DNA of 34,653 nucleotides from Woeseiaceae bacterium (GTDB lineage Bacteria > Pseudomonadota > Gammaproteobacteria > Steroidobacterales > Woeseiaceae), in assembly GCA_013042375.1 (NCBI GenBank), contig JABDQH010000049.1, positions 1-34,653 of the forward strand, read 5' to 3'. Shown piece by piece: positions 16,545-33,740 of this stretch (position 1 is the first letter of the stretch; every line of letters starts with the position of its first letter). The notes under the pieces were generated by a model, which was not told where the DNA came from, made no database searches, and saw only the letters and a list, made by a program, of their open reading frames with translations. The position numbers were made by a program, and so were the translations under genes.

Positions 16545-16572
16545 ATTCTAGCAAAAATAAGGTGCCAGTCAC
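16545..16572 (-). promoter_or_regulatory. Extended -10 promoter for parE-parC
   Basis: On the minus strand GTGACT (16567-16572), 16 bases, then TAGAAT (16545-16550) preceded by TGC, the extended -10 element. The predicted start near 16538 gives a leader of about 40 bases. The -35 falls within the left arm of palindrome B. Confidence 0.5.
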
Positions 16573-16603
16573 CCTATTAAGAAATCAGGTGACTGGCACC
16601 TTA
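16558..16603. repeat. Palindrome B: REP-like element
   Basis: The 16-base arms at 16558-16573 (TAAGGTGCCAGTCACC) and 16588-16603 pair perfectly around a 14-base loop. It lies 10 bases from the DUF3501 stop and upstream of parE. It shares the core CAGTCACCCTA with palindrome C. It may end the rubrerythrin operon transcript (inference). Confidence 0.85.
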
Positions 16604-16613
16604 CTTCTTTGCG

Positions 16614-17201
16614 CTAGGCGAAGTCGTTGATCAGGGACTTGCGAATGTTATCGGGCACCGGCGCGACTTCGACGCGGTAGTTGTCGTGATCGATGCCTGC
16701 GACGAGCGATGCACCGTTGACGAGGGCCGCAACCTGCTCCGGCGGGAACTCGAAGCGCAGGAAGTGCACGGCCGAGGTTTTCTCCTCGGTGTCGCGCTCG
16801 AGGTCCTCGTCGGCGACCGGGTAGACGCGGTCGAAGTCGGCGACCTGGACGTAGACGCGGTCTTCGATGCCGACGAGCTGCGCGAGCATGGCCTTGCGCT
16901 CCTCGATGTCCGGGAATTCGACCATGAACGTCGCCTTCCAGTTCGAGCCATCGGGAATCAGCGGGTTGTAGGCATCCAGTTCCTCGTTGATGCCATCGGC
17001 CTCGAAGATCTTCTCGATGCGCAGCATCTCCTGCACCTGGTACTGCATCGTCAGCCGATCCTCGAAGTACAGCGCGGCATTCGTGCCGAGATCGAGACGG
17101 CGATTCTTCTTGTGCGCCAGTACCTTGTCACGAAATGCAGGGCGCATTTCGGCGTATTTTTCGAGACTGTACAGGTCGTCGCGGGATAGTTTTTCCATCA
17201 T
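16614..17201 (-). CDS. DUF3501 family protein
   Basis: The 195-residue protein matches DUF3501 as I recall the family: MEKLSRDDLYSLEKYAEMR at the N-terminus, LGTNAALYFEDRLTMQYQVQEMLR in the middle (split here as LGTNAALYFEDR and LTMQYQVQEMLR), and a C-terminal FEFPPEQVAAL region. There is no signal peptide, membrane segment or cysteine cluster. Its function is not known. It is the last gene of a three-gene run after a rubrerythrin and a GlpC-like Fe-S protein, a combination found together in many proteobacteria, so it probably acts in the same redox pathway. Its first ATG overlaps the TGA of the Fe-S gene (ATGA); a second ATG follows immediately. Palindrome B lies just past its stop. Confidence 0.85.
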   Translation of the reverse strand: MMEKLSRDDLYSLEKYAEMRPAFRDKVLAHKKNRRLDLGTNAALYFEDRLTMQYQVQEMLRIEKIFEADGINEELDAYNPLIPDGSNWKATFMVEFPDIEERKAMLAQLVGIEDRVYVQVADFDRVYPVADEDLERDTEEKTSAVHFLRFEFPPEQVAALVNGASLVAGIDHDNYRVEVAPVPDNIRKSLINDFA

Positions 17202-18535
17202 ATTCCGTATGCTTTTCTCAAAAGGCCCATGGGGTTATTGGCTTCGTGGTCGTCCACGTCCTGGACGATCTGCTCGGCCGCCATCGGGCAATCGCTCGTG
17301 AAGTGATCGGCGTCCGCCTTCTTGAGCCTGTTGACCACCGGCCGCGCGATCTTCTTCGAGATGTCGTGGAACTCCTGCTTGACCGCGTAGGTGCCGTCAT
17401 GACCGGAACAGCGCTCGATCGCCTCGACCGTCGTATCCGGGACCAGCTGCAACGCATCGCGCGTCTTGAGCCCGATGTTCTGTACGCGCAGATGACACGG
17501 CACCTGGTAGGTGACCTTGCCGAGGGGCGCCTTGAAATCGGTCTTCAGGAGTCCTTCTTTGTGCCTGAGCATCAGGTACTCGAACGGATCGAACATCGCG
17601 TCGCGCACCTTGATGACGTCCGCGTCGTCGGGGAACATCAGCGGCAGCTCCTGTTTGAACATCAGCGTGCACGACGGAATCGGCGTCACGATGTCCCAAC
17701 CCTCGTCGACGAGTTTGACCAGCGCCGGGATGTTGGTCTCTTTGGCTTTGCCGACGGACTCGAGGTCTCCGAGTTCGAGCTTGGGCATGCCGCAGCAGAC
17801 CTCTTTCGACGCCAAGGTCACGGCGATGCCGTTGTGCTCGAAGACGGCGACAATGTCTTCATTGACGTCCGGGTGATTGCGATTGCAGTAGCAGGTCGTG
17901 AACAGAGCGACCTTGCCCTTGGTGGCCTCGGTCGCTGTGGCGGACGCGCCCGTGTTGCCGTCGAGACGCGACAGGCGCTTGCGTGCCGTGCGCGAGTGGT
18001 ACTCGGGTACCGGCGCGTTCTCATGTACCCCGAGCACCGATTTGAGCAGCTTGCGCCCAGTCTTGCTGCGATTGACGGCATTGACCGCGTTGACGACGAC
18101 CGGAATGCCGGCGAGCTTCCCCACCCTGTCGGTCGCGCTCAGGATCTTGTCACGCGTCGACGCGCCCTCCTTGCGAAAGCGCGCCGCCTTGGCGCGCAGC
18201 ATCAGATGCGGGAAGTCGACATTCCACTCGTGCGGCGGCACGTACGGGCATTTAGTCATGTAGCACATGTCACACAGGTAACAGTGATCGACGACCTGCC
18301 AGTAGTCTTTCTTCGCGACGCCGTCCATCTCCATCGTGTCGGACTCGTCGATGAGATCGAACAGCGTCGGGAACGCGTGGCACAGATTGAAGCAGCGGCG
18401 GCAGCCATGACAGATGTCATAGACGCGTTCGAGTTCGCCGAACAGCGCGTTATCGTCGTAAAACTGCTCCGAGCGCCAGTCGAGCGGATGGCGCGTCGGC
18501 GCCTCGAGGCTACCCTCGCGTCTTGAATCGGTCAT
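17198..18535 (-). CDS. GlpC/heterodisulfide-reductase-like Fe-S oxidoreductase
   Basis: The 445-residue protein has two N-terminal 4Fe-4S motifs: C42, C45, C48, C52 in CHGCRRCFNLC and C85, C88, C91, C96 in CYLCDMCYMTKC. Two cysteine-rich CCG-type domains follow, with VCCGMPKLELGD, SCTLMF, VPCHLR and CSGHDG. This layout resembles GlpC and HdrD-type subunits, which carry electrons rather than bind substrate. No flavin domain or membrane helix is present. With a rubrerythrin upstream (42-base gap holding a hairpin) and DUF3501 downstream (overlap), it is likely the electron donor to the rubrerythrin; this is inference. It is not glpC itself, because no glpA/glpB is nearby. Confidence 0.88.
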   Translation of the reverse strand: MTDSRREGSLEAPTRHPLDWRSEQFYDDNALFGELERVYDICHGCRRCFNLCHAFPTLFDLIDESDTMEMDGVAKKDYWQVVDHCYLCDMCYMTKCPYVPPHEWNVDFPHLMLRAKAARFRKEGASTRDKILSATDRVGKLAGIPVVVNAVNAVNRSKTGRKLLKSVLGVHENAPVPEYHSRTARKRLSRLDGNTGASATATEATKGKVALFTTCYCNRNHPDVNEDIVAVFEHNGIAVTLASKEVCCGMPKLELGDLESVGKAKETNIPALVKLVDEGWDIVTPIPSCTLMFKQELPLMFPDDADVIKVRDAMFDPFEYLMLRHKEGLLKTDFKAPLGKVTYQVPCHLRVQNIGLKTRDALQLVPDTTVEAIERCSGHDGTYAVKQEFHDISKKIARPVVNRLKKADADHFTSDCPMAAEQIVQDVDDHEANNPMGLLRKAYGI

Positions 18536-18546
18536 GATCGAGGAAA

Positions 18547-18564
18547 CCGGGCCTTGCGGCCCGG
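18547..18564 (-). terminator. Intercistronic hairpin after rubrerythrin
   Basis: Arms CCGGGCC (18547-18553) and GGCCCGG (18558-18564) with a four-base loop, followed on the minus strand by TTTCC. It sits between the rubrerythrin stop and the Fe-S gene start. It may be a leaky terminator or processing/stability site that gives more rubrerythrin than Fe-S protein. Confidence 0.5.
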
Positions 18565-18577
18565 CTCTCCGGAAAAA

Positions 18578-18997
18578 CTAGTCGTCGAGTGTATCGAGCG
18601 CTTTCTGGAAGCGATTCGCATGCGAACGCTCGGCCTTGGCGAGCGTCTCGAACCAGTCGGCGATCTCGTCGAAGTCCTCGTCACGCGCCGTCTTGGCCAT
18701 GCCCGGGTACATGTCGGTGTACTCGTGCGTCTCGCCGGCGATGGCGGCTGCCAGGTTCTTGGCGGTGCTGCCAATGGGCAGGCCCGTAGCCGGATCGCCC
18801 GTCTCCTCGAGGTATTCGAGGTGGCCGTGCGCGTGGCCCGTTTCACCTTCGGCGGTCGAACGGAATACCGCGGCAACGTCGTTGTAGCCCTCTACGTCGG
18901 CCTTGGCCGCAAAGTACAGGTAACGGCGGTTCGCCTGCGATTCACCGGCAAATGCTTCTTTAAGGTTGCCTTCGGTCTTGCTGCCTTTCAGTGACAT
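18578..18997 (-). CDS. Rubrerythrin, ferritin-like domain only
   Basis: The 139-residue four-helix diiron protein has the expected ligands: E19, E52 and H55 (ETGH), E89, E92, E123 and H126 (ERSH). The C-terminal rubredoxin domain of classical rubrerythrins is absent, so an external electron donor is needed. Rubrerythrins reduce hydrogen peroxide. The Fe-S protein encoded next is the obvious candidate donor (inference). A good ribosome site, GAGAGGAA, precedes the ATG. A sigma-70 promoter (19070-19098) and a dyad (19046-19060) lie upstream. Confidence 0.93.
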
Positions 18998-19045
18998 TTG
19001 GTGTTCCTCTCAAGGTAGGGGATAGGGTCGGCACAATGTAGAACA

Positions 19046-19060
19046 CTAGACCGAGTCTAG
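19046..19060. promoter_or_regulatory. Operator-like dyad CTAGAC-N3-GTCTAG
   Basis: Perfect six-base inverted half-sites flank CGA. The dyad lies about 10 bases downstream of the -10 of the rubrerythrin promoter, overlapping the predicted first transcribed bases, a position suited to a repressor. I do not recognise the regulator. Confidence 0.5.
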
Positions 19061-19069
19061 CAAGCGGTT

Positions 19070-19098
19070 ACAGTAGGCCCGGACCTCGTGACTGTCAA
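19070..19098 (-). promoter_or_regulatory. Sigma-70 promoter for the rubrerythrin operon
   Basis: On the minus strand a consensus TTGACA (19093-19098), 17 bases, then TACTGT (19070-19075). The predicted start is near 19063, giving a leader of about 65 bases that contains the dyad. Confidence 0.6.
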
Positions 19099-22616: not shown

Positions 22617-23921
22617 TCAGGTATTCGCGGCGCCGCGCCCCTGCAGGCGCGTGATCAGGGCCCGCAGGAATACCTTGTTGAAGCGCAGCTGGCAGGCCGA
22701 AGAGACCTGCTCCATGAGCGTGGAACTTACCCGCAGGATCGTAACCTGGCCCTCGCCACAAATGGACGCCTGGCGCTTCGCACCTTGCACGTAGCTCGTT
22801 TCGCCGAAACAGTCGCCGCTGGCCAACCTGCCGATAGTATTGCCATTGGCCTGCACCTCGACTTTGCCGGACACGATGATGTAGAAGCGGTCGTCGACCT
22901 CGCCTTCGCGGACGATGTCTTCGCCGTCCTGGTACTCGTGCCAGTCGGACGCACGCAGTACCTCCCAGATCTCGGCGTGTGAGAACTCGTGGAAAAAATG
23001 CAGCGAGCGCAGCAGGTCGAAATGTTCCTGGTTGTCGAGGCTGTCGTACTTCTGCCTCAGGTCCTTGTAGACACGCGTGAGTTCCGCGGCCATCACGTTA
23101 CCGGTGGACAGGCGCTTGTCCGGGTCTTTCTGCATGGTGCTCATGACGACCCGCTCGAGTTCCTCGGACAGGTCGTCGCGATAGGTGTGAATCGGCGGCG
23201 GTGTGGCGTATACGATCTGGTGCAGCAATTTCGACAGGTTGTCGGCGCGGAACGGACGGAAGCCCGTCAGCATCTCGTACATGACGGCGCCCAGTGAGTA
23301 GAGGTCGGAACGCGAGGTCAGCTCTTCCGACTGCACCTGTTCGGGCGACATGTAGCTCGGCGAGCCGGCAATGCCCTCGATGCGAGACACATCCGAGTCC
23401 CTGACGATGGCGATGCCGAAGTCGATGATGCGCACGTCGTTGTCGATCGTCAGCATGACGTTCGACGGCTTGATGTCGCGGTGGATAACGCCACGGCCGT
23501 GCGCATAGTGCAATGCCTTCGCGCACTTGTAGATGATCTCGACGACATCGTCGACGCGCAGCAGGTTGTCCGGGCGACAATACGCGGCGAGCGTGCGCGC
23601 CCCCTGGATGTGCTCGATGACGACGTAGTAGCTGCCGTCTTCCTCGCCGGCGTCGAAGATCGGCATGATGTTGGGATGCTGCAGCATCCCGACCATGTGA
23701 GCTTCGTTAAAGAACATCTTGCGCGACACATTGGCGCGCTCGGCGTCGACATCTTCTTCGAGGTTATAGACCTTGATGGCGACGTCGCGCCGGTAATAAG
23801 GATCGTGAGAAAGATAAACGGTGCCAGTGCTGCCCTTGCCGATCTTGTTGATGATGACGTACTTGCCGATCTTCTCGGGTACGTCACCCGACCGGTTGAT
23901 TTCCGTAGCACTGATGGACAT
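22617..23921 (-). CDS. Ser/Thr protein kinase fused to a cyclic-nucleotide-binding domain
   Basis: The 434-residue cytosolic protein has a complete Hanks-type kinase domain (about 20-285): GKGSTGTVYL, K50 in VAIK, HRDIKPSN with D149, DFG (167-169), SPEQ in the APE position. A cNMP-binding (Crp/PKG-like) domain follows (about 305-425) with a phosphate-binding cassette CFGETSYVQGAKRQAS including R383. There is no membrane segment or DNA-binding helix. The order is like a bacterial parallel of cyclic-nucleotide-gated kinases with the sensor at the C-terminus. It lies 12 bases after pgpA at the end of the glyA-to-pgpA operon. Its substrate and whether it senses cAMP or cGMP are not known. Confidence 0.93.
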   Translation of the reverse strand: MSISATEINRSGDVPEKIGKYVIINKIGKGSTGTVYLSHDPYYRRDVAIKVYNLEEDVDAERANVSRKMFFNEAHMVGMLQHPNIMPIFDAGEEDGSYYVVIEHIQGARTLAAYCRPDNLLRVDDVVEIIYKCAKALHYAHGRGVIHRDIKPSNVMLTIDNDVRIIDFGIAIVRDSDVSRIEGIAGSPSYMSPEQVQSEELTSRSDLYSLGAVMYEMLTGFRPFRADNLSKLLHQIVYATPPPIHTYRDDLSEELERVVMSTMQKDPDKRLSTGNVMAAELTRVYKDLRQKYDSLDNQEHFDLLRSLHFFHEFSHAEIWEVLRASDWHEYQDGEDIVREGEVDDRFYIIVSGKVEVQANGNTIGRLASGDCFGETSYVQGAKRQASICGEGQVTILRVSSTLMEQVSSACQLRFNKVFLRALITRLQGRGAANT

Positions 23922-31048: not shown

Positions 31049-31996
31049 TCATGTTTCGACGAACGACCGGACCACCCGGGTCCAGGCGCGCGCCAGATTG
31101 CGGCGATTGTAACCGCCTCCGCCCGTACCGACGATGCGACCGTCACAGTGCTTGTCGGCCAGGCGGCACAGCGCGGCTGCGGCGTGCGCATGCGCTTCCT
31201 CGGTCCAGCACAGATTCGTGATCGGGTCGCCCTCGAGGCTGTCGGCGCCGCACTGCATGATGATGAATTCGGGCCGCCGCGCGTCGAGGTATGCCTCGAC
31301 GCGCTCCCAGGCACGATGAAACTCGGCGTCACCGGCCCCGGGCAGAATCGGGATATTGAGCTTGGTGTCCTTCGCCCGCCCCCTGCCCGTCTCGTGAGCA
31401 TGCCCGGTGCCGGGGTAGAGGTAGCGGCCATCCTCGTGAATGTCGGCGAAGATCAGGTCCGGGTCTTCCTCGAATCCGTAGAACACGCCGTCCCCGTGAT
31501 GCGCGTCGATATCGACGTAGGCGATGCGCGTCAGACCGAATTCGCAGCGCAGATACTCGGCGGCGATGCCGCAGTCGTTGAAGACACAGAAACCGGCGGC
31601 ACTGTCGCGCGCCGCGTGATGCAGCCCGGCAATCGGGATGAACGCACGCCGATACTCCCCGCGCATAACCTCGTCGACGGCCGACAATACGGCACCAACG
31701 ACATTCGATGCCGCATCGTAGATGCCTTTCATGGCCGGCGTATCGCCGCCGTCGAGATAGCCATTGCCCTCTGCCGACATACGCGACACCTTGTCGATGT
31801 ACTCGGCCGTGTGAAACAGCGCCAGCTCGTCGGCGCGCGCGGGGCGCCCGTGCCCGAATTCGAGGTACTCGCCCAGCCCTTCCCTGTCGAGCTCATCGTG
31901 AAACACGTCATGCCGATCCAGCCCGAACGGATGCGGATCGCCAAAGCCGTAGTCCGCGATCCCCTTCCCCCTGTAGACCAGCACTTTATCGCTCAT
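31049..31996 (-). CDS. Histone deacetylase family (AcuC/class II-like) enzyme
   Basis: The 315-residue protein contains the zinc-deacetylase core: HHAARDSAAGFCVFNDC, zinc ligands D and H in YVDIDAHHGDG, the third Asp in CGADSLEGDP, and GTGGGGYN with the catalytic tyrosine. Bacterial relatives deacetylate acetyl-lysine of acetyl-CoA synthetase (AcuC) or polyamines/acyl amides; the substrate here is undetermined. I start at ATG 31996 (MSDKVLVYRG); an ATG at 32005 would add three residues. Neither has a strong ribosome site. It diverges from ettA across 70 bases. Confidence 0.9.
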   Translation of the reverse strand: MSDKVLVYRGKGIADYGFGDPHPFGLDRHDVFHDELDREGLGEYLEFGHGRPARADELALFHTAEYIDKVSRMSAEGNGYLDGGDTPAMKGIYDAASNVVGAVLSAVDEVMRGEYRRAFIPIAGLHHAARDSAAGFCVFNDCGIAAEYLRCEFGLTRIAYVDIDAHHGDGVFYGFEEDPDLIFADIHEDGRYLYPGTGHAHETGRGRAKDTKLNIPILPGAGDAEFHRAWERVEAYLDARRPEFIIMQCGADSLEGDPITNLCWTEEAHAHAAAALCRLADKHCDGRIVGTGGGGYNRRNLARAWTRVVRSFVET

Positions 31997-32066
31997 CGGG
32001 CGCATCGTTGTTTTCTTGAGCGGCAGCATACCGGATAATGCGCGCTTCTCAACACGCAGCTCCGAC

Positions 32067-33740
<1,674 letters not shown>

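Follow-up and report, generated by a model that had tools for sequence, protein, structure and literature searches.

A three-gene operon in a 34,653-nucleotide stretch of DNA from a Woeseiaceae bacterium (contig JABDQH010000049.1 of assembly GCA_013042375.1; hereafter the window) is of an ordinary, well-conserved and already known kind: it is a member of the published aerobic-type rubrerythrin system of peroxide defence. Its three open reading frames (ORFs), confirmed on the minus strand between positions 16614 and 18997, encode, in order of transcription, a rubrerythrin (RBR), a GlpC/Hdr-like iron-sulfur protein (RFO) and a protein of the DUF3501 family. The trio was described as the aerobic-type rubrerythrin system, and RFO was given its name, by Cardenas, Quatrini and Holmes in 2016 (PMC5114695), and a mitochondrial version has been reported in Andalucia and other eukaryotes (PMC7050145). 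The window operon and its relatives share with the 2016 description the three families, their clustering, an RBR without a rubredoxin domain, a GlpC-like RFO and the existence of Nitrosomonas fusions. Peroxide reduction, which the original prediction from the window's sequence had raised as a possibility, is also the published reading of the trio (PMC5114695, PMC7050145), and our results support it. The route of the electrons and the role of DUF3501 were left open in 2016 (PMC5114695), and no answer was found in the parts of the literature searched.

Here we describe the genes, the ligands of their products, their conserved linkage and a conserved promoter motif. Three observations go beyond the literature found: a predicted operator in front of the rubrerythrin gene, a cysteine signature that sets RFO apart from GlpC, and a link between the operon and a ferritin of the EncFtn type. 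In contrast, the parts of the 2016 paper that were covered mention no operator and no EncFtn gene, and a term search of it for cysteine and CCG found no cysteine comparison of RFO (PMC5114695). The literature searched, leaving aside the genes marked HYP in Figure 3 of that paper, likewise held no report of a link between EncFtn and DUF3501.

Three linked genes and their metal ligands

The first gene, rbr (18578-18997), encodes a single-domain rubrerythrin of 139 amino acids (Pfam Rubrerythrin, PF02915, 4.1e-29), whose closest solved structures are 9onm (3.7e-74) and 4di0 (4e-74), followed by sulerythrin. The protein contains no cysteine and, as originally predicted, no rubredoxin domain. Sixteen of its Glu and His positions are unchanged in all 68 aligned sequences, among them E19, E52, H55, E89, E92, E123 and H126, which we take from rubrerythrin structures to be the di-iron ligands. 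Complete ligands without a rubredoxin domain, and co-located genes for RFO (COG0247/CCG) and DUF3501, are the marks of membership in the aerobic-type system, and the window operon shows them all; the NCBIfam RuberyRbr model matched at its positions 3-145 of 194 only and did not reach its cut-off (136.2 against 200). Identity to the window proteins in 16 loci of other genomes of the phylum is strongly uneven within the operon, at 82-91 % for RBR, 40-65 % for RFO and 36-64 % for DUF3501.

The second gene, rfo (17198-18535), encodes a protein of 445 amino acids (Pfam CCG, PF02754, 8.9e-15) with two ferredoxin-type four-cysteine motifs and a CCG part. The GlpC/Hdr-like character of this protein stands as predicted; its description as a two-cluster carrier falls short, for seven further cysteines of the CCG part are invariant. 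In 104 aligned RFO sequences, all eight ferredoxin-type cysteines are conserved together with C215, C247, C248, C289, C347, C376 and C416, so that the two modules of the CCG part hold four and three invariant cysteines. RFO shares the ferredoxin-type motifs and the CCG part with Escherichia coli GlpC, but the position of GlpC C330 is serine in 103 of the 104 sequences and alanine in one, CSG replacing CCG, and that of C372 is alanine in all 104, CxxA replacing CxxC. The same holds for a divergent set of 17 (the window protein and 16 others, down to about 40 % identity), with serine at the first site in all 17 and, at the second, alanine in 15 and glycine in two. The GlpC form of the second module, C...CCG...CxxC, is thus missing from RFO, which also falls below the NCBIfam GlpC cut-offs (219.4 against 278, and 148 against 279.9). 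This CSG/CxxA signature, as opposed to CCG/CxxC in GlpC, is an addition of the present analysis; it predicts that the second CCG cluster is absent or lacks part of its ligands. The modelled fold of RFO in a natural RFO-DUF3501 fusion (P0146, pLDDT, or predicted local distance difference test, 81.6) matches structures of LutA, EtfD and HdrB over the CCG part, and that of EtfD over nearly the whole of RFO. The EtfD match starts at residue 250 of that protein, whose earlier part has no counterpart, and in this model RFO looks like a stand-alone relay.

The third gene (16614-17201) overlaps rfo by 4 bases and encodes the DUF3501 protein of 195 amino acids (PF12007, 8.4e-71; no model matched in the NCBIfam scan). 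The expectation that it would lack a cofactor motif was borne out, for it contains neither a cysteine nor a recognised cofactor site. RBR and DUF3501 both being cysteine-free, neither a rubredoxin domain nor a cysteine-bound iron-sulfur site is possible in either of them. The structure model of DUF3501 (pLDDT 92.4) has a mixed fold of helices and strands equal to that of 3fjv, the only firm match of a structure search whose weak hits were mostly beta sandwiches, and 17 diverse sequences share 32 invariant positions. A search for longer proteins containing DUF3501 found 134, and 95 of the 120 listed combine it with CCG; many of these fusions are named as, or look like, Nitrosomonas, and some look like joined or frameshifted assemblies. 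The fusions suggest contact of DUF3501 with RFO, and an adaptor, for docking or scaffolding, would be the likeliest role of DUF3501, at about an even chance. Proteins in which DUF3501 is joined to CNP1, phosphoglycerate mutase or other partners, as well as some of the joins to RFO, appear frameshifted or joined in assembly and were given no weight.

The trio is recurrent, as the original prediction had stated, and the finding that would have spoken against that prediction, DUF3501 genes commonly standing without the other two, was not made. In an even draw of 298 other genomes from the phylum (299 with our own), DUF3501 is present in 16 (17 with our own), and in all 16 the trio is clustered in the same order and on the same strand, directly adjacent in 15, the RFO and DUF3501 genes being separated by an EncFtn gene in the remaining one (L149). 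Within our own genus and order, DUF3501 is found in 81 of 99 genomes, our own included, and RFO adjoins DUF3501 in 30 of 31 loci (our own and 30 relatives), the exception (L009) being a place where the locus ends. A deeper set comprised 80 loci, the best among at least 586 in named genomes, and is biased to near relatives; 67 of these loci have more than 2.5 kb upstream and were testable, and the other 13 end too near the gene, two of them still showing the trio. The trio is clustered in 64 of the 67: in 60 the gap between RFO and DUF3501 is below 400 bases, nine of these having an EncFtn gene in it, and in four it is 400-425 bases, with EncFtn in every case. L110, counted among the 60, has its best RFO match ending 506 bases off, and a second, shorter match lies near. 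The three loci without a full trio nearby lack RBR (L087 and L103) or RFO (L101), and in each of these genomes the missing gene lies elsewhere, so that the trio is split. The L101 genome has two RBR copies of the same type, one with RFO and the other with DUF3501. A published survey of 4461 complete genomes had counted 185 triples, 25 genomes with RBR and DUF3501 only, one with DUF3501 alone, and one with DUF3501 and RFO without RBR (PMC5114695).

Plasmid carriage was seen in only 4 of 72,556 plasmid records, all from Burkholderia and on replicons of 2.4-3.5 Mb that are probably secondary chromosomes. No recurrent gene for an electron donor or reductase stood beside the operon among the 20 neighbouring ORFs, out of 104 in the 16 phylum loci, that were scanned against Pfam: seven had no match, and the rest were mixed, including an aldo/keto reductase directly upstream of rbr (L154), NnrS, FUR and CNP1. 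In the 80-locus set, the neighbours scanned were examples of EncFtn, Fur and LysR proteins and one further ORF, in L110, with a weak CCG match.

A promoter motif and its candidate regulators

Comparison of promoters and pattern scans point to a predicted operator upstream of rbr, CTAGACTCGGTCTAG (19046-19060, minus strand), of the Fur superfamily and Irr/PerR-like. Its pattern, the 15-bp inverted repeat TTAGA-N5-TCTAA, was noticed in the rbr promoters of relatives, 40 of which were viewed, and in our judgement resembles an Irr box. The site lies nine bases downstream of a weak -10-like hexamer, TACTGT (19070-19075, 3 of 6), and this position, 3' of the hexamer, would be of the repressor type. 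A 17-nucleotide spacer separates the hexamer from a -35-like TTGACA (19093-19098); both were read by eye on the minus strand, and a consensus promoter scan reported neither. A probable ribosome-binding site of rbr, AGAGG, follows at 19006-19010.

The strict motif occurs once in our own assembly (2.76 Mb, 83.9 % complete), at the rbr promoter, and its reversed control has one site in the assembly as well, so that the count says little and the position of the site is the informative part; the relaxed motif YTAGAN5TCTAR also occurs once, at the same promoter, against 10 for its reversed control. Among the 66 loci with 250 nucleotides upstream, 43 carry the motif, and the remaining 693,387 bases of these loci hold five sites. 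A scan of the genus, which is only a partly independent check, gave matches for 27 of 61 genomes. After four genomes without DUF3501 (G016, G032, G038 and G051), one whose contig starts too near (G059) and G002 were left out, 21 were kept, our own included, and in 18 of these a site lies 1799-1915 bases ahead of DUF3501, the exceptions being G018, G048 and G053. A second operator-like site, TTAGAAGTGTTCTAA, was seen in several relatives; in the one context examined, L192, it falls within the 3' end of a nuoF-like ORF, it had no Rfam match in two loci, and it was set aside as coding sequence.

Genes of the Fur family lie within the fetched stretch in 7 of the 80 loci (one of them confirmed by Pfam). 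The nearest relative of these proteins in our own genome is encoded in L166 (43-52 % identity), a canonical-looking Fur in L165 being more distant (29-33 %). The L166 protein scores below the NCBIfam cut-offs for IrrA (117.2 against 150), Irr (113.3 against 170) and PerRA (84.8 against 200), and on its sequence may be called Irr/PerR-like only. In 4 of the 16 phylum loci, rbr is directly preceded by an Irr-like gene read from the same strand, and the one that was scanned (L158) passes the IrrA cut-off (210.4 against 150). Irr is known to control a different rubrerythrin-like gene, mbfA/blr7895 (PMC3413700); no report of its control of the RBR-RFO-DUF3501 operon was found in the parts of the literature searched.

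A second type of candidate regulator stands near in 12 other loci of the 80, where all 12 LysR-type genes encode both OxyR redox cysteines, nine residues apart; the three proteins scanned scored best with OxyR, at 236.7 to 269.8, under its cut-off of 329. An oxyR neighbour of the system has also been described in Sideroxydans (PMC7852563). None of the 12 loci has the motif: of the 66 loci, 43 have the motif only, 12 oxyR only, 11 neither and none both (Fisher 2.7e-7). When relatives are collapsed by DUF3501 identity, the value rises to 7.7e-6 (54 clusters), 7.7e-5 (47) and 0.051 (26, two of them with both), and the exclusion is therefore partly a matter of lineage. Half-palindromes of the OxyR type, with at least 9 of 10 matches, occur in 11 of the 66 promoters as against 5 of 1881 background windows. 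Altogether, at least one of four features, namely the motif, an OxyR-like site, an oxyR-type gene and a Fur-type gene, is present at 61 of the 66 promoters, and none at the other five. Of our additions, the regulator's identity is the least secure.

An EncFtn-type ferritin in related operons, and the surroundings of the window operon

In 14 of the 80 loci (L049, L050, L054, L055, L058, L084, L085, L088, L092, L094, L097, L105, L108 and L112) and in one of the 16 phylum loci (L149), RFO and DUF3501 are separated by a gene for an EncFtn-type ferritin; in one more of the 80 (L069) such a gene lies directly downstream of the operon. The genes as called encode 93-108 amino acids, with one longer, and PF22277 matched in the two that were scanned. 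EncFtn cargo would be expected to have an encapsulin shell in the same genome, and no shell gene was found in any of 15 genomes with EncFtn at the operon; the search control was positive in 3 of 14 genomes, and with nine of the 15 titled as metagenome-assembled genomes and six not, this absence counts mainly in sum. Our own genome encodes an EncFtn-like protein of 97 amino acids elsewhere (L131, 1308-1601, minus strand), next to what are presumably ubiA-like and recG-like ORFs, and no encapsulin gene was found in the assembly. The operon ferritins share their family and approximate length with NE0167 of Nitrosomonas europaea (3k6c), a short EncFtn-like protein without a targeting peptide (PMC11202242). 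Unlike proteins of the NE0167 type, they are linked to the RBR operon through the order of the genes. According to a 2024 review, it is unclear whether the short EncFtn-like forms are encapsulated (PMC11202242).

The window operon is bounded on its 5' side by a divergent xseB and on its 3' side by genes of the ParE and ParC kind, as assigned by Pfam scan. Proteins at 82-85 % identity (P0093 and P0108) carry names that agree with a Woeseiaceae-like genome. Between the start of the parE-like gene and the stop codon of the DUF3501 gene, an inverted repeat of AAGGTGCCAGTCACC and its complement (16555-16606) is, on its sequence, a candidate REP-like element or bidirectional terminator; its exact pattern is present only in our own locus among 196 fetched. 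Farther away, the window encodes a protein kinase domain fused to a cyclic-nucleotide-binding domain (22617-23921, minus strand) and a protein of the histone-deacetylase family (31049-32080, minus strand; PF00850). Kinase-like ORFs, judged by eye, were also noted in 7 of the 80 loci.

Peroxide reduction as the probable function, and competing explanations

The explanation that we find best overall, and hold to be probable, is that RBR would use its di-iron site to reduce hydrogen peroxide, perhaps along with organic hydroperoxides. Its electrons must come from outside, because the rubredoxin domain is missing; RFO, as an iron-sulfur relay of the GlpC/EtfD/LutA kind, would most likely pass them on, being fed by a general cellular donor such as NADPH/FNR, ferredoxin, a flavoprotein or a quinol route. 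DUF3501 would most likely be a scaffold or docking partner through which RFO and RBR meet. The operon, with its single promoter-like stretch, would probably be repressed by an Irr/PerR-like protein of the Fur family that may be released under peroxide or iron/heme signals, both the binding protein and the direction of regulation being putative.

Peroxidase activity, peroxide sensitivity of a knock-out and induction by oxidative stress are published for relatives of the window operon. Ferriperoxin of Hydrogenobacter thermophilus, like the window RBR a single-domain rubrerythrin, was tested with NADPH/FNR as donor and reduces both H2O2 and organic hydroperoxides; a knock-out strain fails to grow aerobically and shows sensitivity to H2O2 and paraquat (PMC3317640). 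A peroxide-linked phenotype, whose absence would have spoken against the original prediction, is thus published for RBR alone. Oxidative stress raises bpss1837-1839 of Burkholderia pseudomallei (a hypothetical protein, a ferredoxin and a rubrerythrin) by log2 3.3-3.4, and a sigma-E mutant shows lower levels of them (PMC4175613). We infer that these are the DUF3501, RFO and RBR genes, judging by their order and by the origin of 3fjv and 4di0 in that species (the latter according to PMC5114695).

Several points weigh against this explanation. For the chain of electrons, no experiment was found in the literature in which RFO or DUF3501 passes electrons to RBR, and the two are not strictly needed for ferriperoxin, because FNR and NADPH suffice in vitro. 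The 25 surveyed genomes that have RBR and DUF3501 without RFO include Thermoproteales (PMC5114695), the RBR of B. pseudomallei binds Mn, Co and Fe with its activity yet to be explored (PMC12585693), and the model of the RFO-DUF3501 fusion (pLDDT 81.6, pTM, or predicted template modelling score, 0.63) has no readable domain arrangement. For the regulation, some of the promoters later counted had already served to derive the motif, which is present in only 3 of the 16 phylum loci, in none of the four of these with an Irr-like gene directly upstream, and in two (L060 and L100) of six testable loci with a nearby Fur-type gene. Irr is, moreover, mainly an iron/heme regulator, and for this reason the operator may report iron.

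The competitor that survives best overlaps with the explanation above and departs from it only in what RFO and DUF3501 do: FNR or ferredoxin would reduce RBR directly, and the other two proteins would have a separate job, such as loading the di-iron site or repairing it after oxidation. The sufficiency of NADPH and FNR for ferriperoxin in vitro (PMC3317640), the RBR-DUF3501 pairs without RFO (PMC5114695), and the conservation of RBR at 82-91 % beside 40-65 % for RFO and 36-64 % for DUF3501, as if RBR bound other conserved partners, all speak for it. The iron-sulfur ligands of RFO are, however, invariant across sequences of 40 % identity, which fits an electron relay, and the linkage of the three genes is near-total; we regard a direct donor as a rather unlikely, if serious, alternative.

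Somewhat less likely still would be a chain of its own kind, in which a cytosolic relay derived from EtfD/GlpC, with an open-ligand CSG/CxxA module, is docked by DUF3501 to a di-iron peroxidase, a shell-less EncFtn decamer joins in some lineages to catch iron, and an Irr/PerR-like repressor acting at TTAGA-N5-TCTAA is interchangeable with OxyR. Its probability is lowered because Irr-like neighbouring genes and the motif do not go together.

It is also doubtful that the operon answers to iron and not to peroxide as such, with ferroxidase activity or iron buffering as the main role of RBR, release of iron or assembly of the di-iron site governed by RFO and DUF3501, and the operator reporting iron or heme. 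Such a role would account for the Irr/PerR-like motif and the nearby Irr-like genes, for the EncFtn-type gene that 14 of 80 loci have within the operon and one has directly downstream, and perhaps for a 1.57-fold rise of a Pelagibacter rbr, if of this lineage, on iron limitation (PMC2864753). It fits poorly with the reduction of peroxides by ferriperoxin and the H2O2- and paraquat-sensitive knock-out (PMC3317640), with the induction of the trio, if its loci are rightly identified, by oxidative stress (PMC4175613), and with the 12 loci that lack the motif and have an OxyR-type gene encoding both redox cysteines.

That RFO works like HdrB/HdrD, as a reductase of heterodisulfides or thiols, and so links peroxide to thiol metabolism, is very improbable: the non-cubane clusters of HdrB have five cysteines each, CSG and CxxA leave neither RFO site with such a five-cysteine CCG motif, and this reduced ligand set makes Hdr-type disulfide chemistry unlikely.

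Peroxide reduction by an RBR that RFO supplies with electrons is thus the reading we prefer for a system found across aerobic bacteria, archaea and some mitochondria (PMC5114695, PMC7050145). The motif, the cysteine signature of RFO and the EncFtn link make its open parts testable, namely which Fur-family protein binds the operator and which cluster RFO lacks, and the EncFtn link in particular lets one ask whether an encapsulin shell is needed for short EncFtn proteins to work.

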